Source: Subtercola sp. (lineage in GTDB: Bacteria; Actinomycetota; Actinomycetes; Actinomycetales; Microbacteriaceae). Taken from it: a DNA stretch of 64,000 nt. The stretch is taken from assembly GCA_025463765.1 (NCBI GenBank), contig JAODBC010000022.1, positions 1 through 64,000 on the forward strand. The letters are read 5' to 3'. A program made the translations under genes and the position numbers. Positions 2,859 to 24,689 of this stretch are shown one piece after another. Every line of letters starts with the position of its first letter. Position 1 is the stretch's first letter. The notes under the pieces are model-generated. The model was not told the DNA's origin. It did no database searches and saw only the letters and a program-made list of their open reading frames with translations.

Positions 2859-3899
2859 ATGCCCGAATCCGCAGCGCGCAGTCTGCCGCTTTTCGACGCC
2901 GCAGACCCGATGGATGCTCCGCCTCTGCGCTGGGGCATCATGGGCCTCGGCAGCATCTCTGAGCGCTTCACCACCTCGCTGTGTGCGCACACCCGACAGC
3001 AGTTGCAGGCGGCCGGATCGCGCACGCTCGCCAAGAGTACGGCGTTCGCCGCGCGTCACCACATCGCCCGAGCCCACGGTTCGTACGAGGAGCTGGTGGC
3101 CGATCCCGAGGTCGATATCGTCTATGTCGGCACTCCGACGAGCATGCATCACGACTGTGCGATGCTCGCGCTCGAAGCGGGCAAGCACGTGCTCGTCGAG
3201 AAGTCGTTCGCCGCGAACGCGCAGCAGGCCCGGGCGATGGTCGAGGCATCCGAAGCCCGCGGGCTGTTCATCATGGAGGCGATGTGGCCGCGCTTCTTAC
3301 CGTTCATGCGCACCGCGCGTACGGCGGTCGATTCGGGGCTCATTGGGCGACCGCTCACTCTGACGGCCGATCTGGCCGACTACAACGAATACGATGCCGA
3401 CAACTACATGTTCTCGCCCGAGTTGGGCGGCGGTGTGACCCTCGACCGCGGAATCTATCTCGCGTCGCTGAGCTCGCTGCTCATCGGCCCGACGCAGACC
3501 GTCGCGGTCGATGGTCTGCAAGACGCGACCGGTGTGGATGCCCACCTCAACATCACGCTCGGCAACGGTCAGGGCGCGTACTCGCAACTGATGGCCAGCA
3601 TGTACGTCAACGCGCCGTCGAATGCGCGCCTCTCGGGCACGCAGGGGAGCCTGTCGTTCGAGCCGCCGTGGTTTCTCTCGCCGCGCGTGACGCTGTTCGA
3701 TTCGCGGGGCGCGGTGCTCGACGCGGTCGACTCGTACCTGCGGCGCGACGTCGATGCCTTCTGCTATGAGGCGGCGGAGGCCGCACGGGTGATCAGTGCG
3801 GGAGGCATCTCGTCGCCGCTGATGCCGGCTCGGGAGTCGATTTCGATCATCGAGACGCTCGACCGGATTCTGCAACAGGCGCACGCCTCGTGGCAGTAG
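2859..3899 (+). CDS. Gfo/Idh/MocA family oxidoreductase
   Basis: LRWGIMGLGSISERFTTSL ... DIVYVGTPTSMHHDCAMLALEAGKHVLVEKSFAANAQQA. Confidence 0.9.
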   Translation: MPESAARSLPLFDAADPMDAPPLRWGIMGLGSISERFTTSLCAHTRQQLQAAGSRTLAKSTAFAARHHIARAHGSYEELVADPEVDIVYVGTPTSMHHDCAMLALEAGKHVLVEKSFAANAQQARAMVEASEARGLFIMEAMWPRFLPFMRTARTAVDSGLIGRPLTLTADLADYNEYDADNYMFSPELGGGVTLDRGIYLASLSSLLIGPTQTVAVDGLQDATGVDAHLNITLGNGQGAYSQLMASMYVNAPSNARLSGTQGSLSFEPPWFLSPRVTLFDSRGAVLDAVDSYLRRDVDAFCYEAAEAARVISAGGISSPLMPARESISIIETLDRILQQAHASWQ

Positions 3900-4728
3900 C
3901 CGTTGGTGGCCTCATGGCAGCGGCGATCGGTTGGGCGCCGAGGGCGGTCAGTTCTGCCATATCGATGTTGCCGAGCGTCAACGAGCGACCGTAGGTGAAG
4001 CGCACACGGCTGGCCAGCCATGATGTTCTCGACAGCTCCACCAGCTCGCCCGTCTCGCGCAGGCGACTCGCGGTGGTCACCTCGAGCAGCGGCACATCTC
4101 GGTATGCCGCCAGCCAGCCGGCCTGCTCGATGCTGGCGAACGAGATGCGCACAGAGCTGCTGGCGCCGACCAGTGCTGTTGAAAGTGCGGTCGAAGCGGC
4201 AGACGGCAGCTCGGGCATCCACGACTCGGTGATGCCGATGGCGATCTCGTCGACCTGCTGAATGTGCCGACCGAAGCGCACGTCGTCGGGTGAGTCGTAT
4301 TCGACGTCGCGACGAAGAGCCTCGGGAATGCTTGCGTGGTCGGCGGTCTCGATAAGGCGTGAACGCGCGGTGTGGCCCGTGGCCAGCAATTGCTCTCGCC
4401 ACGGCCGAAGCAGGTCGACGTCGCAGCGAAGCAGGTCGCTGATCTCGGTAACGAAAGTGCCAGAACCTCGACGCGAACGCAAGAGCCCCTCACCGGCAAG
4501 GCCCTCAATGGCCCGGCGAACGGTCATGCGGCTGACCCCGTAGTACGTCACCAGTTCGGCCTCTGACGAGATGCGGGATCCGGGAGCGAATTCGCGTAAC
4601 TCGACTCGACGGCGAAGGTCGCGCTGCACCTGGCCCCAGGCGGTGAGGGGGGAGTCGGGTTCGACGACGAAGCGAGTCACCCGTCTATTGTGGCGCATCT
4701 CATCTGGCCCATTCGGGTCGGCGTGCAT
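3847..4728 (-). CDS. GntR family (UTRA-type) transcriptional regulator
   Basis: LRRRVELREFAPGSRISSEAELVTYYGVSRMTVRRAIEGLAGEGLLRSRRGSGTFV; C-terminal ligand-binding domain; exact start uncertain. Confidence 0.85.
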   Translation of the reverse strand: MHADPNGPDEMRHNRRVTRFVVEPDSPLTAWGQVQRDLRRRVELREFAPGSRISSEAELVTYYGVSRMTVRRAIEGLAGEGLLRSRRGSGTFVTEISDLLRCDVDLLRPWREQLLATGHTARSRLIETADHASIPEALRRDVEYDSPDDVRFGRHIQQVDEIAIGITESWMPELPSAASTALSTALVGASSSVRISFASIEQAGWLAAYRDVPLLEVTTASRLRETGELVELSRTSWLASRVRFTYGRSLTLGNIDMAELTALGAQPIAAAMRPPTATATRRAPVAESGRASR

Positions 4729-4844: not shown

Positions 4845-6119
4845 ATGGCCGTGAACGAGCCAGCAGCGCCGAAACCGGCCCCTCGAATCGCCATCGTGGG
4901 TGCAGGCCCTGCGGGGTGTTACACCGCGCAGTTCTTGCGCAAGCGCTGGGGGCTCGCCGACATCGTGATCTACGACCGACACGATGCGCCGTACGGCCTC
5001 ATCCGTTACGGGGTGGCTCCCGACCATCTCGGCACCAAGGCCATCGCGAAGCAATTCGATCGGCTGTTCGCCCGTGACGGGGTGACCTTCGTCGGCGGTA
5101 CCGACATCGGCACCGACATCACTCTCGACCAGTTGCAGGCCGACTTCGATGTCGTCGTGCTCGCGACCGGGCTCTGGGCCGACCGGATGATCGATACCTT
5201 TCATACCGCTGACCATGCTGCCGCACCGCTCGCCGGTGTGTACGGCGCGGGCCGGCTGACTCGGCTGATCAACGGGCATCCGGCCGAGAGCGTGCAGGGT
5301 CTGCGCATCGGCCGCCGAACGGTCATCGTCGGCAACGGAAACGTGGCTGTCGACCTGGTGCGGCTAATGCTGACGCCCGCCGACGTGCTCGCCTCCCACG
5401 GCGTGACTGACGATGTCATCGCCGCCCTCACGGCAGGCCCGCTCGAGCACATGGATGTGGTCGGCCGGTCACCCGTGCACGCCGCGAAGTTCGACCTGGC
5501 GATGATTCGTGAGCTCGGCAAGCTCCACGACGTGCGGTTCACGAGCGACTCCCTCGTCGACGACGAGACGGCTGGTGAGGCCGCGGCTACGGATGCTCCG
5601 ACCGACGGCGCCGCAAAGGCCGCCGCGATTCGTGAACTCGTCGAAGGCTCGTCGCCCACGGCGACCCGCACCGTCGCGCTTCATTTCGGCTGGACGCCCG
5701 ACCGGGTCTCTGCCGGCGAGGCCGTCGCGGCAGGCGAGGCTGATGAGGCAGGCGAGCCGGTCGAGGGGGGTGGCGACGCCCGTGGGCATGTCGCGCACGT
5801 CACCTTCACGGCGACACCGGGTGCGGGCCAGGACGGAGCAACCCTTGAGCTCAGCACAGACTCCGTCTGCACCGCCGTCGGCTTCACCGAGACCGAAGGC
5901 GCCCTGCTGCGCCGTGACGCGATCGCGTCGCCGACCGCCGACCTCGACCGCGGTCTGCTCGCCGACGGGCTCTATTGCGTCGGCTGGTTTCGTCGTGGTC
6001 CGGTCGGAACCATACCCGCCAACCGCGCCGACGCCCGCACCGTGGCCGACGCGATCATCCACGACGTCGAGGCGGCGGCGGCCGAGCTCGATGCGGCCGT
6101 CTCGACTTCCCTTTCTTGA
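4845..6119 (+). CDS. FAD-dependent ferredoxin/flavodoxin-NADP reductase, FprA-like
   Basis: RIAIVGAGPAGCYTAQFLRKR ... YDRHDAPYGLIRYGVAPDHLGTKAI ... IVGNGNVAVDLVR ... PVGTIPANRADA. Confidence 0.88.
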   Translation: MAVNEPAAPKPAPRIAIVGAGPAGCYTAQFLRKRWGLADIVIYDRHDAPYGLIRYGVAPDHLGTKAIAKQFDRLFARDGVTFVGGTDIGTDITLDQLQADFDVVVLATGLWADRMIDTFHTADHAAAPLAGVYGAGRLTRLINGHPAESVQGLRIGRRTVIVGNGNVAVDLVRLMLTPADVLASHGVTDDVIAALTAGPLEHMDVVGRSPVHAAKFDLAMIRELGKLHDVRFTSDSLVDDETAGEAAATDAPTDGAAKAAAIRELVEGSSPTATRTVALHFGWTPDRVSAGEAVAAGEADEAGEPVEGGGDARGHVAHVTFTATPGAGQDGATLELSTDSVCTAVGFTETEGALLRRDAIASPTADLDRGLLADGLYCVGWFRRGPVGTIPANRADARTVADAIIHDVEAAAAELDAAVSTSLS

Positions 6120-6172
6120 TCGCCTACCTCTTATACCCACTTGTACCCACGCCTCTCATATAAGGAGAATCG

Positions 6173-6637
6173 ATGAAATTCGTCATTCTGTACGGCACCG
6201 AATCGGGCAATGCCGAGACGGTCGCCGACGACCTGGTCGACGAGCTCTCGGCCGACAACGAGGTCGAGTCGATCGACATGACCGACGCTGACATCGACAC
6301 GCTGACGCCTGACGCGTTTTTTCTCGTCGTCTGCTCCACCCACGGCGACGGCGGCCTGCCGGCCAGTGCGGTGCCGTTCGCCGAGTTGCTCGACGCTGAG
6401 CGACCCGACCTCACGGGCATCCGGTATGCGATGTTCGGCCTCGGTGACAGCTCGTACGAGACCTACAGCCGGGGAAGCGAGCGTATCGACGAGCGTCTCG
6501 CGGCACTGGGCGCGACCCGTGTCGGAGAATACGGGCGGCACGACGCGAGCGACGGATCACTACCGAACGACACCGCACTGGAGTGGGCCCGAGACCTCGT
6601 GTCGACCCTTGACGACGTAGAGGCGGTGGCCCGATGA
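6173..6637 (+). CDS. Flavodoxin / MioC-like FMN protein, probable P450 redox partner
   Basis: MKFVILYGTESGNAETVADDL ... STHGDGGLPASAVPF ... FGLGDSSYETY. Confidence 0.88.
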   Translation: MKFVILYGTESGNAETVADDLVDELSADNEVESIDMTDADIDTLTPDAFFLVVCSTHGDGGLPASAVPFAELLDAERPDLTGIRYAMFGLGDSSYETYSRGSERIDERLAALGATRVGEYGRHDASDGSLPNDTALEWARDLVSTLDDVEAVAR

Positions 6638-7878
6638 GCATCACCACGGCGGTTCACGCGCCCGATATCGTCATTCCCGCCGACCTCACGGTGCACTACG
6701 ACCCACTGTCGTACGCCGATTACGACTACCCGTACGACCTGTTCAAACGGCTGCGCGATAAAGCTCCGGTGTACTACAACGCCGACCGCGACCTCTACAT
6801 CGTTTCGCGCTACGCCGATGTGCGGGCGAGCCTCGGCGACCACGTTCGTCTCTCGAACCGGCTCGGCAATGACATCGACGGCACCCACGATTCGTACGGC
6901 AACGGAATGCTCGTGGCGCTGGATCCACCGCGCCACACCGCCCTGCGTGCCGCCATACGCCGCACCTTCTCGGCCCGCGAGATTCTCACGAAAGAAGACA
7001 GTACGCGTGAGTTCAGCCGAGAGCTGATCGGTTCGATTCGCCGGGCGGGCGGGGGAGACTTCGCCACCGACGTCGCCATTCCGATGGGTATCGGCATGGG
7101 AATCGCGTTGCTCGGCGCTCCGCAGAGCGACAACGAGGCGTTCAGCGAGCACCTGTTGCGCGCGATGGTTCGAATCGTCGGTCACCTCGGTGTTCCCGAC
7201 GATGCCGCGGAGGCCAACCACGAGACCGAGCAGATTCTCGAAGAACGGTTCGCCGAGCGCCGCGCAGCGATCGATGCGGGCGCCGACGGCACCAGTACCG
7301 ATGCCTTCACCCAGATTCTGATCGCGGTGCACGCCGGCAAGGTCTTTCCCGAAGAGCAGGGCGGCCTGGCGCACCTCGTGCTGTCGGCGGCGAGCGATGC
7401 ACCCGCGTCGCTGTTGACCAACTGCATTGCGATTCTCGACAAGTTTCCGGCGCTGCAGAGCTTTCTACGCGACAACCCCTCGATGATTCCGCAGTTCGTC
7501 GAAGAGTCACTGCGCTATGACACACCCGGGCAGAACCTCTCGCGCCAGACGACCGAAGAGATCGAGATCGCCGGCACGGTCATCCCCGAGAATTCGCGGG
7601 TGATGTTCTTGCAGGGTTCGGCCAACCGGGATGAACGGGTTTACGACGACCCCGACAGCTTCGACCTGACGCGCGAGTTCACGCCAGCGAATCGAATCAT
7701 GTCGTTCGGCGACGGAATCCACGCCTGCATGGGCGCTCCTTTCGCCCGGCTCGCGGCCCGGGTTGTCATCGAAGAGCTGGTGCAGGCCGGTGAGTTCCGC
7801 ATCGTCGGTTCGCCCGAACGCTGGACGAAGCAGCTCGTGCGCGGCTTCTCGAAGTTGCCGATTCGGTTCGTGTCGTGA
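6634..7878 (+). CDS. Cytochrome P450
   Basis: ExxR (EESLR), haem-binding loop FGDGIHACMGAPFARLAARV; 4-bp overlap with the flavodoxin gene. Confidence 0.95.
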   Translation: MSITTAVHAPDIVIPADLTVHYDPLSYADYDYPYDLFKRLRDKAPVYYNADRDLYIVSRYADVRASLGDHVRLSNRLGNDIDGTHDSYGNGMLVALDPPRHTALRAAIRRTFSAREILTKEDSTREFSRELIGSIRRAGGGDFATDVAIPMGIGMGIALLGAPQSDNEAFSEHLLRAMVRIVGHLGVPDDAAEANHETEQILEERFAERRAAIDAGADGTSTDAFTQILIAVHAGKVFPEEQGGLAHLVLSAASDAPASLLTNCIAILDKFPALQSFLRDNPSMIPQFVEESLRYDTPGQNLSRQTTEEIEIAGTVIPENSRVMFLQGSANRDERVYDDPDSFDLTREFTPANRIMSFGDGIHACMGAPFARLAARVVIEELVQAGEFRIVGSPERWTKQLVRGFSKLPIRFVS

Positions 7879-8327
7879 CTGGCGCGGCGTCGCCCGAGGT
7901 GAGGCGCCTCGAGTGGGCCGTCAAGCCGAGCTTCGTGGCCTACGTCGAGTCCTTGCCCGACGGCCGTGTCGAGGTCGGGGGCGGGGTGACGCGCGCGAGC
8001 GACGGACGGTTCGTTTTCGGTGCTGACGCCGGGCAGGGCGAGTTCGGTTTCGTCGGCAGTGTGCACTTCTTCGGTCACCACGGTGTGCTCGACGTGACTC
8101 TCGCAGATCCGCGCATCGAAGTGGTCGGCGACAGATTCGTCGTCACGATCGAGGTGCAGGGCGAACGGGTGCACGTGGCCACGGTCGAACAACTGCGAGG
8201 TGACGGCGCCGATGTGCTCTCGGCATCTGGAGTCGAAGCCACCGACGACGGCGCCGCCCTGCTCGGCGGGGTCTACCAGGCAGGCACTCCGCTCGACAAC
8301 CTCACCATCTACAGCGCGGCCGCCTAG
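7875..8327 (+). CDS. HtaA-like domain protein without recognisable export signal
   Basis: LEWAVKPSFVAYVESLPDGRVEVGGGVTRASDGRFVF...GFVGSVHFFGHHGVLDVTLADPRIEV resembles HtaA domain layout (W-x-V-K-x-SF-x-x-Y ... V-x-F-x-GH-x-G-x-L-D); GTGA overlap with P450 stop. Confidence 0.6.
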   Translation: MTGAASPEVRRLEWAVKPSFVAYVESLPDGRVEVGGGVTRASDGRFVFGADAGQGEFGFVGSVHFFGHHGVLDVTLADPRIEVVGDRFVVTIEVQGERVHVATVEQLRGDGADVLSASGVEATDDGAALLGGVYQAGTPLDNLTIYSAAA

Positions 8328-8361
8328 GTCTCGTTTCGCTCGAAGAAAGGTACCTCTTCTC

Positions 8362-9336: not shown

Positions 9337-10094
9337 GCCCCATTTCAGAGGCTGTCTCTGTCGCAAAACCGGCAGAGATTCGCGCCGAGCTGCTCAGCCT
9401 CGCTGAGCTCGATGCGGCGATCGCGGCGTCGCCGATCGCCTACCTACCGCTCGGCACACTCGAGTTCCACGGGCCGCACCTGCCGATCGGGCTCGACGCC
9501 CTGAACGCGCAGGCCCTGTGCGAAGCCGCGGCGCGGCTGACCGGCGGAATCGTTCTGCCTGTCGTCTACCAGGGCACGGGGGGCGGCCACGGCGCGTACC
9601 CGTGGACCATCATGATGCCCGGGCCCCAAGCTATCGTGGCGAACCTGGTCGCGACGCTCACTCGCCTCGAAGACTTCGGAGTGCGCACGGCGGTGGTTTT
9701 CACGGGCCACTTCGCTGACGAGCAACTGGCGATGGTCGACGACTTGGCAGCGACCTGGAATGGCTCGGCTTCTGCCCTGAGGGTGGTCGGCACCGGAGTG
9801 AACCGCTGCCCAGACGCCCCTCTGCCGCCCGATCACGCCGGCGCGTTCGAAGCGACGTTGCTGTACGCGACGTCGCCCGAATTGGTGCATCTCGACCGGT
9901 TGCCTGCTCTGCATGCGCACCCCGCCGTCGACCCCGGCGACGACCCCTACGGCACGCACCGGCACGACCCCGGGCATCCGCTCTGGGGAATATTCGGGCC
10001 TGACCCGCGCCCAGCCGACCTCTCGAAAGCGACCGAATTGCTAGCGCATCTGGCCAGCTGGCTCGCGGCATCAGCAGTCGAAAATAACGAATAG
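9333..10094 (+). CDS. Creatininase family protein
   Basis: GTG start overlapping AKR stop; IAYLPLGTLEFHGPHLPIGLDALNA ... GGGHGAYPWTIMMP ... HAGAFEATLLYATSPELV. Confidence 0.85.
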   Translation: MSPISEAVSVAKPAEIRAELLSLAELDAAIAASPIAYLPLGTLEFHGPHLPIGLDALNAQALCEAAARLTGGIVLPVVYQGTGGGHGAYPWTIMMPGPQAIVANLVATLTRLEDFGVRTAVVFTGHFADEQLAMVDDLAATWNGSASALRVVGTGVNRCPDAPLPPDHAGAFEATLLYATSPELVHLDRLPALHAHPAVDPGDDPYGTHRHDPGHPLWGIFGPDPRPADLSKATELLAHLASWLAASAVENNE

Positions 10095-10104
10095 GCACTA
10101 CTCG

Positions 10105-10126
10105 TAAGAATGTCTTGACATTCTTA
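10105..10126. promoter_or_regulatory. 22-bp perfect palindromic operator overlapping a -35 box (IolR-like core TGTCTTGACA)
   Basis: TAAGAATGTC-TT-GACATTCTTA; -35 TTGACA 10115-10120, 18-bp spacer, -10 TACGAT 10139-10144. Confidence 0.7.
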
Positions 10127-10231: not shown

Positions 10232-11284
10232 ATGATTCTCTCGAAGCTCATCAAACCCACGGGCACCACCCGCAAACGTCTTCGCGCCGCATTGCTCATC
10301 ACCCCGGCGCTTGCAGCCGTCGCGGTGCTGTCGGCCTGTTCGCCGCAGAACGGCGGCTCGACCTCATCGACCGGAGACGCCAGCGCCTCCAACGTGAACC
10401 TCGTCGTCATCGGCGGCGCCTCTGACGACGTGTTCTTCTCCACCGTGAAGCGCGGCATCGACGACGCAGCCAAGGTGCCAGAAGCATCGGGTGCGAAGGT
10501 CACCTACCTCGCGCTGAAGAACTACGACAACCTCGGGCCGGATGTGGCGCAGCTCATCACCAACGCTCTGGGCATGAAGCCCAGTGCCATCGCCGTTCCC
10601 GACTGGGTTCCGACCGCTGAAGACCCCGCTATTCAATCGGTTATCGCCGCGGGCATTCCGGTTGTCATCTACAACGCCGGAACGTGGGACCAGGCGAGCA
10701 AGCTCGGCGCCACGACCTACATCGGCACGGATGAGTACCTCGCAGGCAAGGCCGCCGGCGAAGCGCTCGGCAAGGCCGGCTCGAAGAACGCTTCGTGTGT
10801 CAACACGGTTCCCGGTTCGACCAACCTCGAAGACCGCTGCTCGGGTGTCAAAGACGGCATCGCCGAAACAGGGGGAACCTCGAGCGAACTCGCGCTTCCC
10901 GCGACGAGCTTCGGCAACGCTACGGCAGTGACCCAGGCCATCAAGTCGAACCTGCAGCAGAACACTTCGATCGACGCCGTCATCACCGTCGGTGGTTCTG
11001 ACTCCGAGGCGGCCTTCGCTGCGCTCACGCAGGCCAACTCGACCGCCAAGTTCATCACCTTCGGCAACTCGACAACGGTGGATGCCCGCATCCAGGCCGG
11101 TACCCAGCTCGCCTTCATCGATCAGCAGCCGTACGCGCAGGGCTTCTACAGCGTCTCCGCCATGTGGCAGTACGTCGCCTACGGTCTTGAACTGCCGACC
11201 AAGCCGATTCTCACCGGCCCGGCCGTCATCACGAAAGACAACGTCGCAGCCGTCATCGCCGGTTCAGCGGCAGGCGTTCGCTAA
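10232..11284 (+). CDS. Sugar/inositol ABC transporter substrate-binding lipoprotein
   Basis: Signal peptide with lipobox LSACS; periplasmic-binding fold typical of ribose/inositol binders. Confidence 0.88.
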   Translation: MILSKLIKPTGTTRKRLRAALLITPALAAVAVLSACSPQNGGSTSSTGDASASNVNLVVIGGASDDVFFSTVKRGIDDAAKVPEASGAKVTYLALKNYDNLGPDVAQLITNALGMKPSAIAVPDWVPTAEDPAIQSVIAAGIPVVIYNAGTWDQASKLGATTYIGTDEYLAGKAAGEALGKAGSKNASCVNTVPGSTNLEDRCSGVKDGIAETGGTSSELALPATSFGNATAVTQAIKSNLQQNTSIDAVITVGGSDSEAAFAALTQANSTAKFITFGNSTTVDARIQAGTQLAFIDQQPYAQGFYSVSAMWQYVAYGLELPTKPILTGPAVITKDNVAAVIAGSAAGVR

Positions 11285-11300
11285 CCACTCGCTCCACACG

Positions 11301-11330
11301 GGTGCCGGGCCCTCCAGAGGGTCCGGCACC
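11301..11330 (+). terminator. Intercistronic hairpin between binding protein and permease genes
   Basis: GGTGCCGGGCCCTC-CA-GAGGGTCCGGCACC. Confidence 0.65.
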
Positions 11331-11395
11331 ATCACCCCCTCTCATCACTAGCTCAATCGGTCGCCCATCGACTTCTCACGTAAGGAACTAGACAC

Positions 11396-12469
11396 ATGGC
11401 AATCGCCGCTACTACGGGGGTGAAGGCAACCAAGCCGGTTGCCGCACCACCTGCTCCCCGCAATCAGACCTCGTTCGGCCGACTCTCGCGCCGACCCGAG
11501 ACGGGCGCGCTCGCCGGAACCGTTCTGGTCTTCGTGATCTTCACGATTCTGGGAGGATCGAACTTCATCTCCATCGGCGGAGTCGCCAGCTGGCTGAACG
11601 TCGCCGCCGAACTCGCCATCATCGCCCTTCCGGTCGGCCTGCTGATGATCGCCGGAGAGCTCGACCTCTCGGTCGGGTCTGTCGTCGCGGCCAGCTCGAT
11701 GACCATGGCGATCGTCTCGGGTACCTATGGCGCCCCGATGATCGTCGGCATTATCGCTGCCCTCGCCGTGGGTGCCGCCGCGGGCTTCATCAACGGCCTG
11801 ATCGTCTCCCGAACCAACGTGCCGTCGTTCGTCGTGACGCTGGGAATGAACTTCGGTCTGGCCGGTATCACCCTCGGTCTCTCACGGTTGATCACCGGTA
11901 CCACGAACGTTCCGCTCGACCCCGGGCCCTTCTTCAAGGGCCTGTTCGGCAGCCTCATCGGCGGCCAATTCGAGGTCGCCATCTTCTGGGCGCTCGGCGT
12001 CGCTCTCGTCATCGCCTGGCTTTTGCAGATGACTCCGTTCGGCAACTGGGTCTTCGCCATCGGCGGTGACAAAGAGAGCGCACGGGCCACGGGCATCCCC
12101 GTCACCCGCGTGAAGATCTCGCTGTTCATGATGAGCGCCCTGGGCGCGGCCCTCGTCGGCATCATCCAGACCTGCCTCTACAACGGCGCGCAGACGTCGA
12201 CGGGCCAGTCGTTCGTGTTCAACTCGATCATTGCGGCCGTCATCGGTGGTGTTCTGCTGACCGGTGGTTACGGCTCGGTGCCGGGCGTCATTCTCGGTAC
12301 CCTGACGTTCGCCATCGTGAGCCAGGGCATCTACACCACCTCGCTCAGTTCCGACTGGGCCAGCTTCATTCTCGGCGCCCTTCTGCTGGCTGCCGTTCTC
12401 ATGAACAACACGTTCCGTAAGCTCGCTCTCTCGAGCGGTGTGCGGGCCCCGAAGATCAAGAAGGCGTGA
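11396..12469 (+). CDS. Sugar ABC transporter permease (RbsC-like)
   Basis: Hydrophobic protein with IALPVGLLMIAGELDLSVGSVVAASSM and INGLIVSRTNVPSFVVTLG motifs. Confidence 0.92.
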   Translation: MAIAATTGVKATKPVAAPPAPRNQTSFGRLSRRPETGALAGTVLVFVIFTILGGSNFISIGGVASWLNVAAELAIIALPVGLLMIAGELDLSVGSVVAASSMTMAIVSGTYGAPMIVGIIAALAVGAAAGFINGLIVSRTNVPSFVVTLGMNFGLAGITLGLSRLITGTTNVPLDPGPFFKGLFGSLIGGQFEVAIFWALGVALVIAWLLQMTPFGNWVFAIGGDKESARATGIPVTRVKISLFMMSALGAALVGIIQTCLYNGAQTSTGQSFVFNSIIAAVIGGVLLTGGYGSVPGVILGTLTFAIVSQGIYTTSLSSDWASFILGALLLAAVLMNNTFRKLALSSGVRAPKIKKA

Positions 12470-12474
12470 CGACC

Positions 12475-13266
12475 ATGACCGAACCACTGCTCAAACTAGA
12501 CCACGTCGGCAAAAGCTACGCGGGCACCGACGCCCTCGCCGACATCTCCCTGCAGGTCGAGGCCGGCAAGGTGCTCTGCCTGCTCGGCGACAACGGCGCC
12601 GGCAAGTCGACCCTGATCAAGATTCTCTCGGGTTACCACACTCCGACCACGGGCACGGTCGAGATCGAGGGCAAGCCTGTCGTTTTCAACAGCCCGAGGG
12701 ATGCCAGTGCCAACGGCATCGCGACCGTTCACCAGTACGGCGGAACCTTTCCCCTCATGACCGTCGGCCGCTCGTTCTTCGTGGGCGTCGAGCCGACCAA
12801 GGGCTGGGGCCCGTTCAAGCGATTCGACAAGGCCACGGCCAACGAGATCTCGGTTCGAGAGCTGAAGGGCCTCGGCATCACGCGCATCAACGACGGCAAC
12901 CGCCTCGTCGGCGGCATGTCGGGTGGTGAGCGCCAGTCGCTCGCGATCGCCCGTGCCGTGTACTTCGGTGCCAAGCTGCTCATTCTCGACGAGCCCACTG
13001 CGGCCCTCGGCGTGAAAGAGGCCTCCCATGTGCTGCGCATCATCATGCAGGCTCGTCGCAAGGGCATTGCTGTGGTCTTCGTGACACACAACGTGCTGCA
13101 CGCGATGACGGTCGGCGACAACTTCGCCGTGCTGATTCATGGGCGGCTGGCCGACTCCTTCGCCAAGGGCGAGCGTACTCGCGAACAGATCACCGACCTC
13201 ATGGCTGGTGGCGAGGCGATGGCAGAGCTCGAGGCCGAAATCGCCCAGTACGAACTGGAAGCGTGA
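12475..13266 (+). CDS. Sugar ABC transporter ATP-binding protein (single ABC domain, RbsA/FrcA-like)
   Basis: Walker A GDNGAGKST, signature MSGGERQSLAIARAV, Walker B LLILDEPTAAL. Confidence 0.93.
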   Translation: MTEPLLKLDHVGKSYAGTDALADISLQVEAGKVLCLLGDNGAGKSTLIKILSGYHTPTTGTVEIEGKPVVFNSPRDASANGIATVHQYGGTFPLMTVGRSFFVGVEPTKGWGPFKRFDKATANEISVRELKGLGITRINDGNRLVGGMSGGERQSLAIARAVYFGAKLLILDEPTAALGVKEASHVLRIIMQARRKGIAVVFVTHNVLHAMTVGDNFAVLIHGRLADSFAKGERTREQITDLMAGGEAMAELEAEIAQYELEA

Positions 13267-13272
13267 TCGGCG

Positions 13273-14361: not shown

Positions 14362-14368
14362 ACGAGCA

Positions 14369-14400: not shown

Positions 14401-14401
14401 G

Positions 14402-15376: not shown

Positions 15377-16333
15377 ATGACGGATACGTCCTTTCCCCTC
15401 GACGTGCTGGCCATTGGCCGGCTCGGTGTCGACATCTACCCGCTTCAAGACGGTGTCGGCCTCGAAGACGTGTCGACCTTCGGAAAATACCTCGGCGGCA
15501 GCGCCGCGAACGTCAGCGTGGCCGCTGCTCGCTACGGGCATCCGACCGCCCTGATCTCGCGAGCCGGTGACGACCCGTTCGGCCGCTACCTGCTTCGTGA
15601 GCTCGAGCGCCTGGGTGTGAGCAACCGTTACTTCACGGTCGACCCCGACCTCAAGACGCCGGTGACGTTTTGCGAGATCTTCCCGCCCGACGACTTTCCC
15701 CTCTACTTCTATCGCGAGCCGAAGGCTCCCGACCTCAACATCGCGCCCGCCGACCTCGACCTCGACGCCGTTCGCGCCGCCCGGGTGTTCTGGCTGACCG
15801 TCACCGGGCTCAGCCAGGAGCCGAGCCGTGCCGCACATCTCGCGGCGCTCGCCGCTCGCGGTCGGGCCGAGCACACGGTTCTCGACCTCGACTACCGCCC
15901 GATGTTCTGGTCGGAACCGGCCGACGCTACGGCACAAGTCGCGCTCGCTCTCGAACACGCCACTGTGGCTGTCGGCAATCGTGAAGAGTGCGAGGTGGCC
16001 GTCGGCGAGACCGAGCCGCTGCGCGCGGCGGATGCCCTGCTCGAGCGCGGCGTCACGCTGGCCATCGTGAAGCAGGGCCCGAAAGGTGTGCTGGCGAAGA
16101 CGGCCGACGAGACGGTCGAGGTACCGCCGTATTTCGTCGATGTCGTCAACGGCCTCGGAGCCGGCGATGCGTTTGGCGGGGCCTTGTGCCACGGCTTGCT
16201 CGAGGGCTGGGATCTGACCCGCATTCTCACGTTCGCCAACGTGGCCGGCGCACTCGTCGCCTCGCGCCGCGAGTGCTCAACGGCAATGCCGACGACGGCA
16301 GAAGTCGACGCCATTCTTCAGAGGGGAGCATAA
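15377..16333 (+). CDS. iolC: 5-dehydro-2-deoxygluconokinase (PfkB family)
   Basis: PfkB motifs GKYLGGSAANVSVAAARYG and DVVNGLGAGDAFGGALCHGLL; iol cluster position. Confidence 0.92.
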   Translation: MTDTSFPLDVLAIGRLGVDIYPLQDGVGLEDVSTFGKYLGGSAANVSVAAARYGHPTALISRAGDDPFGRYLLRELERLGVSNRYFTVDPDLKTPVTFCEIFPPDDFPLYFYREPKAPDLNIAPADLDLDAVRAARVFWLTVTGLSQEPSRAAHLAALAARGRAEHTVLDLDYRPMFWSEPADATAQVALALEHATVAVGNREECEVAVGETEPLRAADALLERGVTLAIVKQGPKGVLAKTADETVEVPPYFVDVVNGLGAGDAFGGALCHGLLEGWDLTRILTFANVAGALVASRRECSTAMPTTAEVDAILQRGA

Positions 16334-16334
16334 A

Positions 16335-17246
16335 ATGGGCACCGCCCTCAGCGACTTCGACTTCGCGCGTCTGCGCGACATCAGGGCCAGCAAGCCCGAA
16401 GCGATCGGCGAAGCATTCGCCCGCCGCAAGCGCAGAGAAGTGCTGCGCGGCGACGGCAGACTGTTCATCGTCGCGGCCGATCATCCGGCTCGCGGTGCAC
16501 TGGCCGTCGGATCGGATTCGACCGCCATGGCGAATCGCTACGACCTGCTCGACCGCCTCGCCATCGCGGTGAGCCGGCCCGGCGTCGACGGTGTGCTCGG
16601 CACGCCCGACATCATCGACGATCTTGCTGCTCTCGGCCTGCTCGACGACAAGATCATCGTCGGGTCGATGAACCGTGGCGGTCTGCGCGGCGCGACCTTC
16701 GAAATGGACGATCGCTACACAGGCTTCGACGTGCCAACCATGGTGTCGTCGGGCATCGACTTCGCGAAGACCCTCATTCGCGTGAACCTCGAAGACCCGA
16801 TGACCGCGCTCACGCTCGAGGCCACAGCCAAGGCCGTCACCGAAGCCGCTGCCGCAGGGCTTCCCATCATGCTCGAGCCATTCATGAGCAAGTGGGTCGA
16901 CGGCCGCATCGTGAACGACTTGTCGGCGGATGCCGTCATCTTGTCGGTCTCGATCGCCGCGGGCCTGGGCACGAGCAGTTCGTACACCTGGATGAAGCTT
17001 CCCGTCGTCGACGACATGGAACGTGTCATGGAGGCGACCACAATGCCCACCCTGCTGCTCGGCGGCGACTCCGGGGCAGACCCCGACGAGACGTTCGCCG
17101 CGTGGGAAGACGCGCTCTCGCTTCCCGGCGTGCGCGGGCTCACCGTGGGCCGCACGTTGCTGTACCCGCCCGACGGAGACGTCGCGGCTGCCGTTGATAC
17201 GGCGGCCGGTCTGGTGCATCCCACCGGGCTCGCCATCGCCTCCTGA
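16335..17246 (+). CDS. Cgl0159-like (beta/alpha)8 aldolase-like protein of iol clusters
   Basis: GRLFIVAADHPARGALAVG ... GVLGTPDIIDDLAALGLLDDKIIVGSMNRGGLRG; conserved iol synteny. Confidence 0.8.
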   Translation: MGTALSDFDFARLRDIRASKPEAIGEAFARRKRREVLRGDGRLFIVAADHPARGALAVGSDSTAMANRYDLLDRLAIAVSRPGVDGVLGTPDIIDDLAALGLLDDKIIVGSMNRGGLRGATFEMDDRYTGFDVPTMVSSGIDFAKTLIRVNLEDPMTALTLEATAKAVTEAAAAGLPIMLEPFMSKWVDGRIVNDLSADAVILSVSIAAGLGTSSSYTWMKLPVVDDMERVMEATTMPTLLLGGDSGADPDETFAAWEDALSLPGVRGLTVGRTLLYPPDGDVAAAVDTAAGLVHPTGLAIAS

Positions 17247-17342
17247 GCGGCCCCGCCGCACTCCGCCCTTCGCGCCCCGGCCGCCGCACTCCGCCCGCCG
17301 CACCGACCTCCCGTAGACACTCGAAGAATTGAGGAATCACGA

Positions 17343-18887
17343 ATGAGCACCATCGATTTGAACCCTGACACCACCGCTGACGACGCCGTCACCGAACTGC
17401 CGACTGTTCCGCATTGGATCAACGGGGCCGCGTATTTGTCGAGGAGCGGCCGCGTCGGCGATGTCTACGACCCCGCCCTCGGGGTCGTCACCAAGCATGT
17501 CGCACTGGCCGATCAGGCCGAGATCGAGGCTGCGATCGCCGGTGCCGCAGCGGCGTTTCCCGCCTGGCGCGACACGTCGCTGGCCAAGCGGCAGACCATC
17601 ATGTTCAAGTTCCGTGAACTGCTCGATGCGAAAAAGGGTGAGCTCGCCGAGATCATCACGAGCGAGCACGGCAAGGTCGTCTCCGATGCGCTCGGCGAGA
17701 TCAGCCGCGGTCAGGAGGTCGCCGAGTTCGCGACCGGGCTCTCGCACCACCTGAAGGGCGAGTTCAGCGAGCAGGTCTCGACCGGTATCGACGTGTACTC
17801 CACTCGTCAGCCGCTCGGTGTCGTCGGCATCATCTCGCCGTTCAACTTTCCGGCGATGGTGCCGTCGTGGTTCTTCCCCATCGCGATCGCGGCCGGAAAC
17901 ACGGTCGTGCTGAAGCCGAGTGAGAAAGACCCGTCGGCGGCGAACTGGCTCGCTGAGCTCTGGAAAGAGGCGGGCCTGCCCGCTGGCGTGTTCACCGTGC
18001 TGCATGGCGACAAAGAGGCGGTGGATGGTCTGCTCACCCACCCCGAGGTGAAATCCATCTCGTTCGTGGGTTCCACCCCGATCGCCCGGTACGTGTACGA
18101 GACGGGCACCAAGAACGGCAAGCGCGTCCAGGCGCTCGGCGGGGCGAAGAACCACATGCTCGTGCTTCCCGACGCCGACCTCGACCTCGTGGCAGACGCC
18201 GCGATCAACTCGGGCTTCGGCTCCGCCGGTGAGCGCTGCATGGCGATCTCCGTCGTCGTCGCGGTCGAGCCGGTCGCCGATCCGCTGATCGAGAAGATCG
18301 TGGCGCGCATGTCGACGTTGCGTACCGGAGACGGCCGCCGCGGGTGTGACATGGGCCCGTTGGTCACGAAGGTGCACCGCGACAAGGTCGCCTCCTACAT
18401 CGGCATCGCCGAAGACGACGGCGCGACCGTTGTCGTCGACGGTCGTGACGTGAAACCCGATGGCGACCCGAACGGGTTCTGGCTCGGCCCGACCTTGATC
18501 GACAACGTTCCCACCTCGTCACGGGTGTACACGGAGGAGATCTTCGGCCCGGTACTCGCAATCGTGCGCGTCACCACGTACGAAGAGGGTGTGAAGCTCA
18601 TCAACTCGGGCGCGTTCGGTAACGGCACCGCGATCTTCACCAACGACGGTGGTGCCGCACGGCGGTTCCAGAACGAGATCCAGGTCGGCATGATCGGTAT
18701 CAACGTGCCCATTCCGGTGCCCGTGGCGACGTTCTCGTTCGGCGGCTGGAAAGACTCGCTGTTCGGCGACACCAAAGCCCACGGCGCCGAAGGCGTGAAG
18801 TTCTTCACGCAGCAGAAGGCGATCACCAGCCGCTGGCTCGACCCGAGTCACGGCGGCATCAACCTCGGCTTTCCGCAGAACGACTGA
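17343..18887 (+). CDS. mmsA/iolA: CoA-acylating methylmalonate-semialdehyde dehydrogenase
   Basis: PLGVVGIISPFNFPAMVPSWFFPIAIAAGNTVVLKPSEKDPSA ... GSAGERCMAISVVVAV ... MIGINVPIPVPVATFSFGGWKDS. Confidence 0.95.
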   Translation: MSTIDLNPDTTADDAVTELPTVPHWINGAAYLSRSGRVGDVYDPALGVVTKHVALADQAEIEAAIAGAAAAFPAWRDTSLAKRQTIMFKFRELLDAKKGELAEIITSEHGKVVSDALGEISRGQEVAEFATGLSHHLKGEFSEQVSTGIDVYSTRQPLGVVGIISPFNFPAMVPSWFFPIAIAAGNTVVLKPSEKDPSAANWLAELWKEAGLPAGVFTVLHGDKEAVDGLLTHPEVKSISFVGSTPIARYVYETGTKNGKRVQALGGAKNHMLVLPDADLDLVADAAINSGFGSAGERCMAISVVVAVEPVADPLIEKIVARMSTLRTGDGRRGCDMGPLVTKVHRDKVASYIGIAEDDGATVVVDGRDVKPDGDPNGFWLGPTLIDNVPTSSRVYTEEIFGPVLAIVRVTTYEEGVKLINSGAFGNGTAIFTNDGGAARRFQNEIQVGMIGINVPIPVPVATFSFGGWKDSLFGDTKAHGAEGVKFFTQQKAITSRWLDPSHGGINLGFPQND

Positions 18888-18936
18888 TCTGCCCCCGGCA
18901 GACTTTCAGAGCAGCACATCTCTTCAGGAGCACTAG

Positions 18937-19893
18937 ATGACCGACCAACGATGGTTCTATCGCCGTGGCGAGCTCGCGCGTGGCGCGTGGCAGAGCGCCG
19001 TCGATGGCTCGACTCCGGGCTGGGAGCACACGGGCATCCGTGTCGCCCAGCTGGCCGAGGGCGAGAGCGTCGAGCTCGAGGAGACGGGTATCGAACGCAT
19101 CGTCGTGCCGCTCGCGGGCTCGTTCACCGTGTCGTATGCCGAGAACGGCATGCGAACTGAGGTAGTTCTGAACGGCCGGCCGTCAGTGTTCGACGGGCCG
19201 ACCGACGTGCTCTACCTGTCGGCGGCGGCGACCGCGACCGTTCGGGGGAGCGGTCGGGGGAGCGGTCGGGTCGCCGTTGCGACATCACCGACAGACGACG
19301 TGCGGCCGACGCGGTACATTCCTGCCGAAGACACTCCCGTCGAGTTGCGTGGGGCCGGAGCATCCAGTCGCCAAGTGCACAACTTCGGCACACCCCAGGC
19401 GCTGGATGCGGCGCGCCTCATCGTCTGCGAAGTCATCACTCCCTCGCAGAACTGGTCGTCGTACCCGCCGCACAAACACGACGAGAACGTACCGGGGCAC
19501 GAGACCCGGCTCGAAGAGATCTACTACTTCGAGTCGGCGCCCACGCGGGCCGATGCCTCGAAGGCGCCCGACCCGGAGGCGTCGTTCGGCATGTTCAGTA
19601 CGTACTCGTCGCCGGCCGGAGCCATCGAGATCGATGCTCGGGTGCAAACCGGCGACATCGCCCTGGTGCCGTACGGTTACCACGGCCCGGCCGTGGCCGC
19701 CCCCGGGTACGACCTCTACTACCTCAACGTGATGGCAGGGCCAGACCCTGAGCGGGCATGGCTGATCAGCGACGACCCCGCACATGCGTGGGTGCGCGAA
19801 AGCTGGAACGGACAGGTCATCGACGCACGGCTGCCCTACACGAACGACGCAAGAACGACGGCCACCACCACGAACATGAAAGGCGACATCTGA
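18937..19893 (+). CDS. iolB: 5-deoxy-glucuronate isomerase
   Basis: SSYPPHKHDENVPGHETRLEEIYYFE ... VPYGYHGPAVAAPGYDLYYLNVMAGP. Confidence 0.95.
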   Translation: MTDQRWFYRRGELARGAWQSAVDGSTPGWEHTGIRVAQLAEGESVELEETGIERIVVPLAGSFTVSYAENGMRTEVVLNGRPSVFDGPTDVLYLSAAATATVRGSGRGSGRVAVATSPTDDVRPTRYIPAEDTPVELRGAGASSRQVHNFGTPQALDAARLIVCEVITPSQNWSSYPPHKHDENVPGHETRLEEIYYFESAPTRADASKAPDPEASFGMFSTYSSPAGAIEIDARVQTGDIALVPYGYHGPAVAAPGYDLYYLNVMAGPDPERAWLISDDPAHAWVRESWNGQVIDARLPYTNDARTTATTTNMKGDI

Positions 19894-21803
19894 TGGCGAC
19901 GAAGCGAATGACGGTCAGCCAGGCCCTTGTCGAATTTCTCGGCCACCAGTACACCGTCGATGGCGACATCCGCGAACGCACGATTGCCGGCATGTTCGGC
20001 ATCTTCGGACACGGCAACGTTGCCGGCATCGGCCAGGCGCTGGCTCAATTCAACGCCGAGCAGCCCGACTTGATGCCGTACTACCAGGCTCGCAACGAGC
20101 AGGCCATGGTGCACCAGTCGGTGGGTTACGCCCGCATGCACCGTCGTCGGGCGACGTTCGCCTCGGCCGCATCCGTCGGCCCGGGTGCCGCGAACATGCT
20201 GACGGGTGCTGCGCTGGCCACGGCCAACCGCATGCCCGCCCTGCTGCTGCCCAGCGACACCTTCGCCACTCGGGTCGCCGACCCGGTGCTGCAGCAGCTC
20301 GAACTGCCGCACGACATCGGCATCACGGTGAACGATGCGTTCCGCCCGCTCTCGCGGTTCTTCGACCGCGTGCAGCGCCCCGAGCAGCTCTACTCCATCG
20401 CCCTCGCTGCGATGCGGGTACTCACCGACCCCGCCGAGACCGGCGCCGTCACCATTTCGCTGCCCGAAGACGTGCAGGCCGAGGCGTTCGACGTGCCGCT
20501 GGAGTTCTTGCAAGACCGCGAGTGGCACATCCGCCGCCCGCTGCCCGAGCGCGGTGCGCTCGCCCGTGCTGTGACGGCGATCCGTGGCGCGAAGCGGCCG
20601 ATGATCGTCGCGGGCGGTGGTGTGCTCTACTCGAGCGCCGAAGACGCGCTGCGAGACTTCGTGCAGGCAACGGGCATCCCGGTCGGCTCGTCGCAGGCCG
20701 GCGGCGGAGTGCTGAATTGGGATCACCCGCAGTACCTCGGCGGCGTTGGCGCCACCGGTACCCTGGCCGCGAACCGCATCGCGTCTGAGGCCGACGTCAT
20801 CATCGGAATCGGCACCCGCTACAGCGACTTCACCACGGCCTCGCGCACGGCGTTTCAGAACCCCGACGTGCAGTTCGTGAACATCAACGTGGCCTCGTTC
20901 GACGCCTACAAGCACGGTACGCAGCTGCCCGTGATAGCGGATGCCCGTGAAGCTCTCGAAGCGCTGGCGGCTGAGCTCAACGGGCTGCACATCGACGCGG
21001 CCTACGCTTCGCAGATCGCGAGCGAGAAGGCAGCGTGGGACGCGTCGGTCGACGACGCTTTCGCACCGTCGGGTCTCGCGCTGCCCGGTCAGACCGAGAT
21101 CATCGGTGCCGTGCAGTCGTCGAGCGCCCCCGAAGACGTGATCGTTCAGGCGGCCGGTTCGCTGCCGGGCGACCTGCACAAGCTCTGGCGGGTGCGTGAC
21201 CCGCTGGGCTATCACGTCGAATATGCCTTCTCATGCATGGGTTACGAGATCGCCGGCGGTCTCGGTGCCAAGCGCGGTGCTCTGGCCGACGGCTCCGACC
21301 GCGACGTGATCGTGATGGTCGGCGACGGCTCGTACCTCATGCTCAACACCGAGCTGGTGACCGCGGTCGCCGAGGGCATCAAGCTCATCGTCGTGCTCAT
21401 TCAGAACCACGGGTACGCCTCGATCGGTCACCTGTCGGAAACCGTCGGATCCGCGCGCTTCGGCACCTGGTACCGCGAGTACGACGAGAAGGCCCGCAAC
21501 TTTCAGGGCGAGCAGACTCTGCCCGTCGACCTGGCGATGAACGCGCGCAGCTACGGCATCGACGTCATCGAGGTCGAACCGGGCGCCTCTGCCATCGACG
21601 ACCTCAAGGCCGCACTCGCGGTTGCGAAGGCCTCAGAGAAGTCGACGTTCATCCATATCAACAGCGATCCGCTGCTGTATTCGCCCGATGGGGCGGGCTG
21701 GTGGGATGTGCCCGTTGCCGAGGCCTCGACGCTCGAAAGCACACAACACGCACGCACCGAGTACGAAGAGCAGCAGAAGCTGCAGAAGAAGCTTTTGGGC
21801 TGA
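19893..21803 (+). CDS. iolD: 3D-(3,5/4)-trihydroxycyclohexane-1,2-dione acylhydrolase (ThDP enzyme)
   Basis: MTVSQALVEFLGHQYTVDG ... GMFGIFGHGNVAGIGQAL ... ThDP motif GDGSYLMLNTELVTAV; start overlaps iolB stop. Confidence 0.95.
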   Translation: MATKRMTVSQALVEFLGHQYTVDGDIRERTIAGMFGIFGHGNVAGIGQALAQFNAEQPDLMPYYQARNEQAMVHQSVGYARMHRRRATFASAASVGPGAANMLTGAALATANRMPALLLPSDTFATRVADPVLQQLELPHDIGITVNDAFRPLSRFFDRVQRPEQLYSIALAAMRVLTDPAETGAVTISLPEDVQAEAFDVPLEFLQDREWHIRRPLPERGALARAVTAIRGAKRPMIVAGGGVLYSSAEDALRDFVQATGIPVGSSQAGGGVLNWDHPQYLGGVGATGTLAANRIASEADVIIGIGTRYSDFTTASRTAFQNPDVQFVNINVASFDAYKHGTQLPVIADAREALEALAAELNGLHIDAAYASQIASEKAAWDASVDDAFAPSGLALPGQTEIIGAVQSSSAPEDVIVQAAGSLPGDLHKLWRVRDPLGYHVEYAFSCMGYEIAGGLGAKRGALADGSDRDVIVMVGDGSYLMLNTELVTAVAEGIKLIVVLIQNHGYASIGHLSETVGSARFGTWYREYDEKARNFQGEQTLPVDLAMNARSYGIDVIEVEPGASAIDDLKAALAVAKASEKSTFIHINSDPLLYSPDGAGWWDVPVAEASTLESTQHARTEYEEQQKLQKKLLG

Positions 21804-21818
21804 GAGAGGGAACAGATC

Positions 21819-22748
21819 ATGACCGATACCACCACCCCGAGCATCCGCATCGGAACCGCGCCCGACTCGTGGGGCGTATGGTTTGCGAACGACCCCGGCC
21901 AGATTCCGTGGCAACGGTTTCTCGACGAAGTACAGAAGGCCGGCTACAGCTGGATCGAACTCGGCCCGTTCGGGTACTTGCCGACCGACCCGCACGAGCT
22001 CGAAGACGAGCTGGGCAAGCGCGGCCTGAAGCTCTCGGCTGGCACCGTCTTCACCGGCTTTCACAAGGGCGACGACCAGTGGAAGCGGGCGTGGGATCAG
22101 GCTCTCGAGGTCGCCGGTCTGGCGACGAAGCTCGGCGCAAAGCACCTGGTCGTCATCCCCGATCTGTGGCGAAGCGACGCCACGTCGGAGGTGCTCGAGA
22201 GCCGCACCCTCGACGACGAGCACTGGAAGAAACTGGCCGCGGGCCACGACAAGCTCGGCAAGGCGCTGCTCGAAGAGTTCGGCGTCAAGCAGCAGTTCCA
22301 CTCGCACGCCGACAGTCACGTCGGTACGTACAAGGAGGTCGAGCGTTTCTTGCACGAGACCGACCAGGCGTACACGAACCTGTGCCTCGACACGGGCCAC
22401 TTCTCGTACTACGGCGGCGACAACCTCAAGCTCATCGCGGCCTACCCCGAGCGCATCGGGTATCTGCACCTCAAGCAGGTCGACACCTCGCTGTTGTTCG
22501 ATGTGCTGAAGAACGACGTTCCGTTCGCCGAAGCCGTGACCCAGGGCATCATGAGCGAGCCGGGAACGACGGATGCCGGCGTGCCGGAGCTCGGACCGAT
22601 CATCGACGCCGTGGCCGCCCTCGACCCGAACATCTTCGGAATCGTCGAGCAAGACATGTACGGCACCGACATCGAGTTGCCGCTCGGCATCGCGACCCGC
22701 ACCCGCGAGCACATCTTCGGGTGCACCTCGCATGCGCGCATTCACTGA
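21819..22748 (+). CDS. iolE: Myo-inosose-2 dehydratase
   Basis: IRIGTAPDSWGVWFANDPGQIPWQRFLDEVQKAGYSWIELGPFGYLPTDP; TIM barrel. Confidence 0.93.
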   Translation: MTDTTTPSIRIGTAPDSWGVWFANDPGQIPWQRFLDEVQKAGYSWIELGPFGYLPTDPHELEDELGKRGLKLSAGTVFTGFHKGDDQWKRAWDQALEVAGLATKLGAKHLVVIPDLWRSDATSEVLESRTLDDEHWKKLAAGHDKLGKALLEEFGVKQQFHSHADSHVGTYKEVERFLHETDQAYTNLCLDTGHFSYYGGDNLKLIAAYPERIGYLHLKQVDTSLLFDVLKNDVPFAEAVTQGIMSEPGTTDAGVPELGPIIDAVAALDPNIFGIVEQDMYGTDIELPLGIATRTREHIFGCTSHARIH

Positions 22749-22790
22749 CCCTCATGCTCACGCATCACACAGACCTTCAGGAGTAACAAC

Positions 22791-23804
22791 ATGACTACAG
22801 ATCTTCGTGTCGGCGTCGTCGGCGCCGGCCTCATGGGCGCCGACCACGTTTCACGCATCACCCAGCGCATCAGCGGTGCCGTCGTCTCGGCGATCGTCGA
22901 GCCCGACGCCGGCCGTGCCGCCGCCGCGGCCGCGAACGCACCCGGTTCGCTCGCCTTCAGCCGTATCGAAGACGCCATCGCTGCGGGGGCCGTCGACGCC
23001 GTGCTGATCGCGACCCCGGGCCAGTTTCACGAGCCCGTTCTTGTGCCCGCGCTCGAGGCGAAGCTGCCCATTCTCTGCGAGAAGCCGCTCACGCCCGACT
23101 CCGCTTCGTCGTGGAAGATTCTCGAGCTCGAGCAGAAGCTCGATAAGCCGCACATCCAGGTGGGCTTCATGCGCCGCTTCGACGCCGAGTACCAGAAGCT
23201 GCGCGAACTGATCACCTCGGGCGACGCCGGCGAGCTGATGATGCTGCGTGCCGTGCACCGCAACCCGTCGGTCGGCGAGAGCTACACGCAGTCGATGCTG
23301 ATCACCGACTCCGTCGTGCACGAGTTCGATGTCGTGCCGTGGTTGGCCGGTTCGGGTGTGAAGACCGTCGAGGTCAAGTACCCCAAGCGCAACTCGCTGT
23401 CGCCGTCGCACCTCAAAGAGCCGATTCTGGTGCTGATGGAGCTCGAGAACGGCGTGTTCGTCGACGTCGAGATGAACGTCAGCATTCAGTTCGGCTACCA
23501 GGTCGCCACCGAGGCCGTGTTCGAGCGCGGGCTGGCCCGCATCGGCCAGCCGTCAGGCCTGCAGATCTGGAAAGACGGAAAGTTCGAGATCGCCGAGCAC
23601 CAGAGCTTCGTGACGCGCTTCGCAGCCGCCTACGACACCCAGGTGCAGCGCTGGGTCGACGCCGTTCGCGCCGGCACGCTTGTCGACGGCCCGAACTCGT
23701 GGGACGGTTACCGTGTCGCTCTGGCCTGCGAGGCCGGTGTCGCGGCGCTCGACGGTGGAATCATCAGCGTCGAGGCTCCGGAACGCCCCGCGTTCTACGC
23801 GTAG
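22791..23804 (+). CDS. iolG: Inositol 2-dehydrogenase
   Basis: LRVGVVGAGLMGADHVSRI ... LPILCEKPLTPDSASSWKI ... IQVGFMRRFDAEYQKLRELI. Confidence 0.92.
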   Translation: MTTDLRVGVVGAGLMGADHVSRITQRISGAVVSAIVEPDAGRAAAAAANAPGSLAFSRIEDAIAAGAVDAVLIATPGQFHEPVLVPALEAKLPILCEKPLTPDSASSWKILELEQKLDKPHIQVGFMRRFDAEYQKLRELITSGDAGELMMLRAVHRNPSVGESYTQSMLITDSVVHEFDVVPWLAGSGVKTVEVKYPKRNSLSPSHLKEPILVLMELENGVFVDVEMNVSIQFGYQVATEAVFERGLARIGQPSGLQIWKDGKFEIAEHQSFVTRFAAAYDTQVQRWVDAVRAGTLVDGPNSWDGYRVALACEAGVAALDGGIISVEAPERPAFYA

Positions 23805-23819
23805 GAGAAGGAATCACCC

Positions 23820-24689
23820 ATGGTGCGCATCGCCCTCGACCCCACCCCCTATCACCACGACTACACGCTGCTGCAGTTCCCCGATGTCGCAGCGAGGCTG
23901 GGGTACGAGCACCTGCAGCTGACGCCGCACCCCGACTTCAGCCCGTTCTTTCGGTACCCGAAAGCCGACGACGACCTCGTCGCCAAGCTGAAGAAGGCGA
24001 CGGCCGATGCCGGCGTCTCGATTCCGGCGATCTTGCCGGTGCAGCGTATCTCGTCGCCCGATGAGGCGCTTCGGCTGACCGCTGTGCGCAACTTTCGCCG
24101 GGTCATCCAGTTGGCCGTCGATCTCGAGGTGGGCATCATCAACTCCGAGTTCTCGGGGCGCCCCGAGCTGTCGGAGGAGTCGGAGGCCGCGTTCTACCGG
24201 TCGATGGATGATCTGCTGCCGCTCATCGAATCCGAGGGTCTGCGGCTGAACTTCGACCCGCACCCCGACGACTTCGTCGAAGACGGGCTCGAGGCGTGGC
24301 GGGTGCTGCGCGGGCTCAACTCGAGCGCCATCGGATTCGTGTACGTGGCGTCGCACACCTTCCACTACGGCGATCGGGCGGCCACGCTCATCCCGCAGCT
24401 CGGCGACCGGCTCGGCACGGTGTACACGGCCGACACCTTCGACCACCACCGCTCGCACGGGCTGCGCTACATTTCGAACCCACCCGGAAACGCGGCGCGC
24501 GTACATCAGCACCTGCGCATCGGTGACGGCGACGTCGACTTCGAGGCGCTCTTCGCACTGCTGCGGGCGTCGGGCTACCTAGGCCGGCCCGACGCGCTGA
24601 TCGTGTCGAACGTATTCGCTGAAGACGAGACGGCCGACGAGGTGTCGCGCTACCAGCTGCAGCGGCTGCGCGAGCTGGTCGCCGGATGA
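23820..24689 (+). CDS. Sugar phosphate isomerase/epimerase, IolH-like
   Basis: TIM-barrel protein MVRIALDPTPYHHDYTLLQFPDVAARLGYEHLQLTPHPDFSPFF; end of iol operon. Confidence 0.85.
   Translation: MVRIALDPTPYHHDYTLLQFPDVAARLGYEHLQLTPHPDFSPFFRYPKADDDLVAKLKKATADAGVSIPAILPVQRISSPDEALRLTAVRNFRRVIQLAVDLEVGIINSEFSGRPELSEESEAAFYRSMDDLLPLIESEGLRLNFDPHPDDFVEDGLEAWRVLRGLNSSAIGFVYVASHTFHYGDRAATLIPQLGDRLGTVYTADTFDHHRSHGLRYISNPPGNAARVHQHLRIGDGDVDFEALFALLRASGYLGRPDALIVSNVFAEDETADEVSRYQLQRLRELVAG

Follow-up and report, generated by a model that had tools for sequence, protein, structure and literature searches.

The closest described relatives of the protein reported here are the CR domains (PF04213) of Corynebacterium HtaA, ChtA and HtaB, which capture haem outside the cytoplasmic membrane. 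The structurally solved members come from corynebacteria and are either secreted or located at the cell surface; in these, the iron is held by an axial tyrosine, a histidine hydrogen-bonds this tyrosine as a helper, not as an iron ligand, and, in the HtaA and ChtA domains, a serine and a tyrosine contact the haem propionate (PMC12494546). An open-access literature search that covered HtaA domain-containing proteins as well as HtaA in combination with P450 returned no report of a cytoplasmic HtaA tied to a P450; subscription papers lay outside its scope. The way in which bacterial P450s obtain their haem inside the cell is still, for the most part, unsettled.

The window analyzed here, a stretch of 64,000 nucleotides from Subtercola sp. 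(contig JAODBC010000022.1), encodes an HtaA family protein without a leader directly behind a cytochrome P450 gene (Table 1). The 150-residue product matches the Pfam profile PF04213 with 83.7 bits (cut-off 24, E = 2.9e-23) over profile positions 3-163 of 164, and its significant hits by sequence in the PDB are structures of HtaA (8smu, E = 9e-8; 6jsa, E = 6e-6), confirming the HtaA-like membership that the initial annotation had put forward for checking against this profile. A model predicted from a two-sequence input was of low confidence (pLDDT 52.8), and its ten top Foldseek matches in the PDB were all HtaA or HtaB, with TM scores of 0.43-0.64. The domain begins about nine residues past the start codon and stops four residues before the C-terminus; since it fills nearly the whole chain, neither a leader nor an anchor fits, in line with the annotated absence of a signal peptide or transmembrane segment.

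Table 1. Features of the window around the leaderless HtaA gene, in window coordinates.
Feature	Position	Strand	Basis or remark
Leaderless single-domain HtaA protein, 150 aa, GTG start	7875..8327	+	PF04213; PDB HtaA matches
Codons of S19-Y23 (SFVAY), propionate Ser and axial Tyr	7929..7943	+	Alignment with HtaA structures
Codon of H68, helper His	8076..8078	+	Alignment with HtaA structures; His in 39/42
Codon of Y134, propionate Tyr	8274..8276	+	Alignment with HtaA structures; invariant, 42/42
GTGA, HtaA start codon overlapping P450 stop, predicted translational coupling	7875..7878	+	Sequence; NTGA overlap in 9/9 adjacent pairs
Cytochrome P450, partner gene, Cys-ligand motif FGDGIHACMG	6634..7878	+	PF00067; motif
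Flavodoxin, probable electron donor of the P450	6173..6637	+	PF00258, 105 bits
FAD/NAD(P) reductase, probable flavodoxin reductase	4845..6119	+	PF07992; fused in frame with flavodoxin and P450 in L053
GntR-type regulator, divergent	3847..4728	-	Of the complete relatives compared, only G947 lacks an orthologue beside the operon
Gfo/Idh/MocA-family dehydrogenase	2859..3899	+	PF01408; inside the operon in Subtercola lobariae
Aldo/keto reductase after HtaA	8362..9336	+	PF00248; found in every complete operon compared
Creatininase-family hydrolase, weakly similar to IolN of the inositol pathway, start approximate	9345..10094	+	PF02633; NCBIfam
Sugar-type ABC transporter: binding protein, permease, ATPase	10232..13266	+	
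Myo-inositol catabolic genes: IolC, Cgl0159-like, MMSDH-type aldehyde dehydrogenase, IolB, IolD, IolG-like dehydrogenase, others	15377..24689	+	NCBIfam

Alignment with the solved HtaA and ChtA domains revealed that the window protein carries all of their haem-contact residues, Ser19, Tyr23, His68 and Tyr134. The SF-x-x-Y and GH-x-G features pointed out in the initial annotation are found as SFVAY (S19-Y23) and GHHG (G67-G70), aligned with the haem site of 8smu; its statement that Tyr and His are both haem ligands needs correction, as the tyrosine is indeed axial but the histidine is only the helper bonded to it (PMC12494546). Among 42 leaderless HtaA members, the axial and the propionate tyrosine are each invariant (42/42), the helper position is occupied by His in 39, Tyr in two and Phe in one, and the Ser19 position holds Ser in 35 and Thr in four. 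Judged from this site, the window HtaA is likely to bind haem.

All six HtaA genes of the window's genome are leaderless and none is secreted; the window HtaA used alone to scan genome contigs returned one locus. A survey of 150 genomes of the same family contributed twenty further short HtaA genes, selected on score and frame length and blind to their neighbours; together with the six, these make up 26 leaderless loci. The probable starts of all 26 members examined leave no space for a leader and their C-terminal tails are short, and PF04213 was matched by every one of 25 further leaderless members tested. In a maximum-likelihood tree, which is unrooted and whose bootstrap is incompletely settled, one branch (support 95/83) parts 42 leaderless from 36 secreted HtaA domains, a supported branch that points to the leaderless proteins as a separate lineage.

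These leaderless genes are strongly associated with P450s. The window's genome has ten P450 genes, and five of its six HtaA genes lie within 2 kb of one; a P450 occurs within 8 kb in 13 of the 20 leaderless loci from other genomes of the family, and in none of 20 secreted-HtaA loci. At a distance of 2.5 kb or less, 16 of the 26 leaderless loci have a P450 against 0.22 expected from each genome's P450 number (tail P 4e-28), or 11 of 20 when the window's genome is set aside (P 3e-20), with the reading of both P values limited by loci that are not fully independent because the genera are related. Chance adjacency was rejected on this excess. In three genomes (G053, G055 and G146) the HtaA neighbour is the sole P450 found. 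Outside the window's bacterial family the link is weaker, and in the order and class surveys about seven leaderless loci had a P450 within 8 kb and most of the others had none. A Rhodococcus erythropolis R138 plasmid carries a touching gene row of P450, ferredoxin, reductase and, last, HtaA; in Paenarthrobacter aurescens TC1, Arthrobacter sp. D5-1 and a Citricoccus plasmid, HtaA lies 4-7 kb from a P450 system, and some leaderless genes have no P450 within 8 kb.

In the window, the GTG start (7875-7877) overlaps the TGA stop of the P450 gene (7876-7878), as annotated at the outset, and a 4-bp stop-start overlap (ATGA, GTGA or TTGA) recurs in all nine directly adjacent P450-HtaA pairs, which cover three P450 groups. 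A mis-called HtaA start was rejected because the overlap recurs at nine loci. Because stop and start overlap, both proteins should be made together, and translational coupling of the two genes is predicted. The partner P450s are diverse: their median identity is 25%, and linking those with identities above 40% sorts them into nine groups. Co-evolution of HtaA with its P450 was considered and discarded: the overall correlation (Mantel r 0.77) reflects near relatives only and vanishes with one pair per P450 group (r 0.16, P 0.24).

Several further arrangements were observed around these genes. L053 (8420-11389, minus strand) encodes a single-frame reductase-flavodoxin-P450 fusion of 989 residues in the gene order of the window, with HtaA directly behind. 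L011 (2958-6167, minus strand) encodes a P450-reductase-flavodoxin fusion of 1069 residues in the opposite domain order, with LysR and a leaderless HtaA next to it, and L054 and L061 contain long P450 frames similar to this fusion, again with LysR and HtaA. On two Rhodococcus plasmids (L174 and L175, about 5860-8450), HtaA lies directly behind a Rieske oxygenase and a VanB-type reductase, with a P450 about 3 kb downstream. A P450-free leaderless HtaA in L046 (about 7986-12085) lies some 2 kb from a gene that by eye resembles a subunit of cytochrome bd oxidase, another haem enzyme.

The operon itself is conserved as a unit of reductase, flavodoxin, P450, HtaA, aldo-keto reductase and creatininase-family hydrolase with a divergent GntR gene, present in G1124 and G007 (same genus), Subtercola lobariae (L112), G053, and, in another family, G867. 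Between the window and G867, identity is 79% for the P450 and 41% for HtaA. Three genomes (G1064, G1021 and G947) keep the orthologous operon with its P450 and have no HtaA genome-wide, and HtaA is therefore dispensable. The suggestion that the protein is dedicated to a P450 is strongly supported as regards the link, through the nine overlaps, the nine P450 groups, the excess of neighbours and the P450-free secreted loci, but not as an indispensable partnership. An N-terminal Cys-Pro tail occurs on the P450 of two of the three HtaA-less orthologues and of G1125, whose contig ends there, and on none of the HtaA-paired orthologues, a contrast that in such very small numbers is suggestive only. 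In L160 and L162 (HtaA-less) and L164 (neighbour beyond the known sequence) the tail contains CPF or CPY, which might be a haem motif of the Cys-Pro kind, and L163 has neither tail nor HtaA.

A search for the window P450 in 327 genomes of the order found only the window's own. In this P450 and the four HtaA-paired orthologues compared, the usual threonine of the I-helix is alanine (SDAP), a replacement that may affect the oxygen chemistry of the window enzyme. The operon looks like one for O-methyl-inositol catabolism: IolC, IolB and IolD score above curated NCBIfam cut-offs, and the nearly complete myo-inositol region adjoining the P450 operon (8362-24689) suggests demethylation of methyl inositols by the P450. 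By analogy, the enzyme would O-demethylate a methyl inositol of the pinitol or rhizopine type, and the product would then enter the inositol pathway. The ABC binding protein has a rhizopine-type family as its top NCBIfam match, below the cut-off of that family.

Taken together, the conserved haem site, the diversity of the partner P450s and production in step with them argue for a haem-handling accessory, and the same diversity makes haem a more likely common need than any one substrate. The preferred reading, to which a probability of about 0.5 is given, is that the leaderless HtaA is an accessory that binds haem in the cytoplasm and either keeps or delivers it for the P450s made alongside. 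In such a scheme, the HtaA-fold protein would serve the P450 encoded just upstream, binding one haem through Tyr23 with the aid of His68, while Ser19 and Tyr134 would contact a propionate; the haem would then be handed to the apo-P450, or a haem pool would be kept ready under strong P450 production. Delivery to, or support of, the P450 itself carries roughly even odds. Many bacterial P450s produced in E. coli are loaded with haem although no dedicated helper is present, which counts against this role, as do the HtaA-less orthologous operons, the leaderless genes that have no P450 within 8 kb and the two Rhodococcus plasmids in which HtaA follows a Rieske oxygenase; a helper is nevertheless plausible, with support much stronger than a single case would give. 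A wider proposal is advanced tentatively from these sequence comparisons: the leaderless HtaA proteins would form a bacterial family of dedicated haem chaperones that serve P450s in the cytoplasm. They would be a lineage of their own within the corynebacterial haemophore domain, and their partner P450s would belong to nine or more groups, encoded in catabolic clusters of actinobacteria.

Among the other readings, a haem buffer or scavenger, which would take up haem released from P450 that is damaged or in excess and so limit haem toxicity, is unlikely, though close in kind to a delivery accessory, and the data here fit both. The conservation of the haem site and the P450 association suit it equally, and the faster divergence of HtaA than of the P450 between the window and G867 is what might be expected of an accessory that does not meet its partner in a tight interface; against it, a fixed ratio of output to that of the P450 is no less suited to delivery. 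A carrier whose pocket takes the P450 substrate or another small molecule would explain why leaderless genes lie in catabolic clusters, some beside Rieske or flavin oxygenases, but the invariance of the iron-binding and propionate tyrosines, as well as the variety of P450 partners and cluster contents, makes it quite improbable, so that, of the two roles first proposed, one that involves haem is favoured over that of a substrate carrier. Overlap or abutment of the HtaA frame with a LysR or GntR gene in L011, L054, L059, L061 and the Citricoccus plasmid would fit a haem- or redox-sensing partner that reports haem status to the neighbouring regulator; this is very improbable, as the window operon type overlaps the P450 instead, with its regulator divergent, and the HtaA protein lacks a DNA-binding domain. 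An ordinary exported haem-uptake protein with an overlooked leader, as the secreted or surface location of the solved members might lead one to expect, was rejected as scarcely credible, since the same-frame upstream sequence falls inside the P450 gene, no examined member has room for a leader or a long C-terminal tail, and the tree separates secreted from leaderless domains.

The many leaderless HtaA genes that lie beside P450s across actinobacteria suggest an intracellular helper, hitherto unrecognised, that would hold or deliver haem for these enzymes. A small soluble putative haem binder that is produced alongside P450s of many kinds lends itself to a direct and cheap co-expression test, and HtaA co-expression could aid the production of poorly haem-loaded P450s. 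By proposed role, not by sequence, it may be likened to eukaryotic PGRMC1 and PGRMC2, haem-binding proteins which support P450s or chaperone haem, the support of P450s by PGRMC1 being reported as haem-independent (PMC8591507). For the window P450, the model, again by likeness, is the sugar-catabolic P450 of marine bacteria that removes the O-methyl group of 6-O-methyl-D-galactose, a system that differs in sugar and organisms and whose abstract makes no mention of HtaA (PMC10033563). The Corynebacterium domains (6JSA, 6JSB, 8SMU) share with the window protein a full-length PF04213 domain, the axial tyrosine, the helper histidine and the Ser/Tyr propionate contacts. In contrast to the HtaA and ChtA haemophores, which have an export signal and are anchored or secreted, the window protein is a single domain without leader or anchor, in a separate tree lineage, and none of its neighbours is an Hmu haem-import gene, these being a P450, redox partners and sugar or inositol genes; the HtaA fold would thus have moved from extracellular haem capture to intracellular metabolism.
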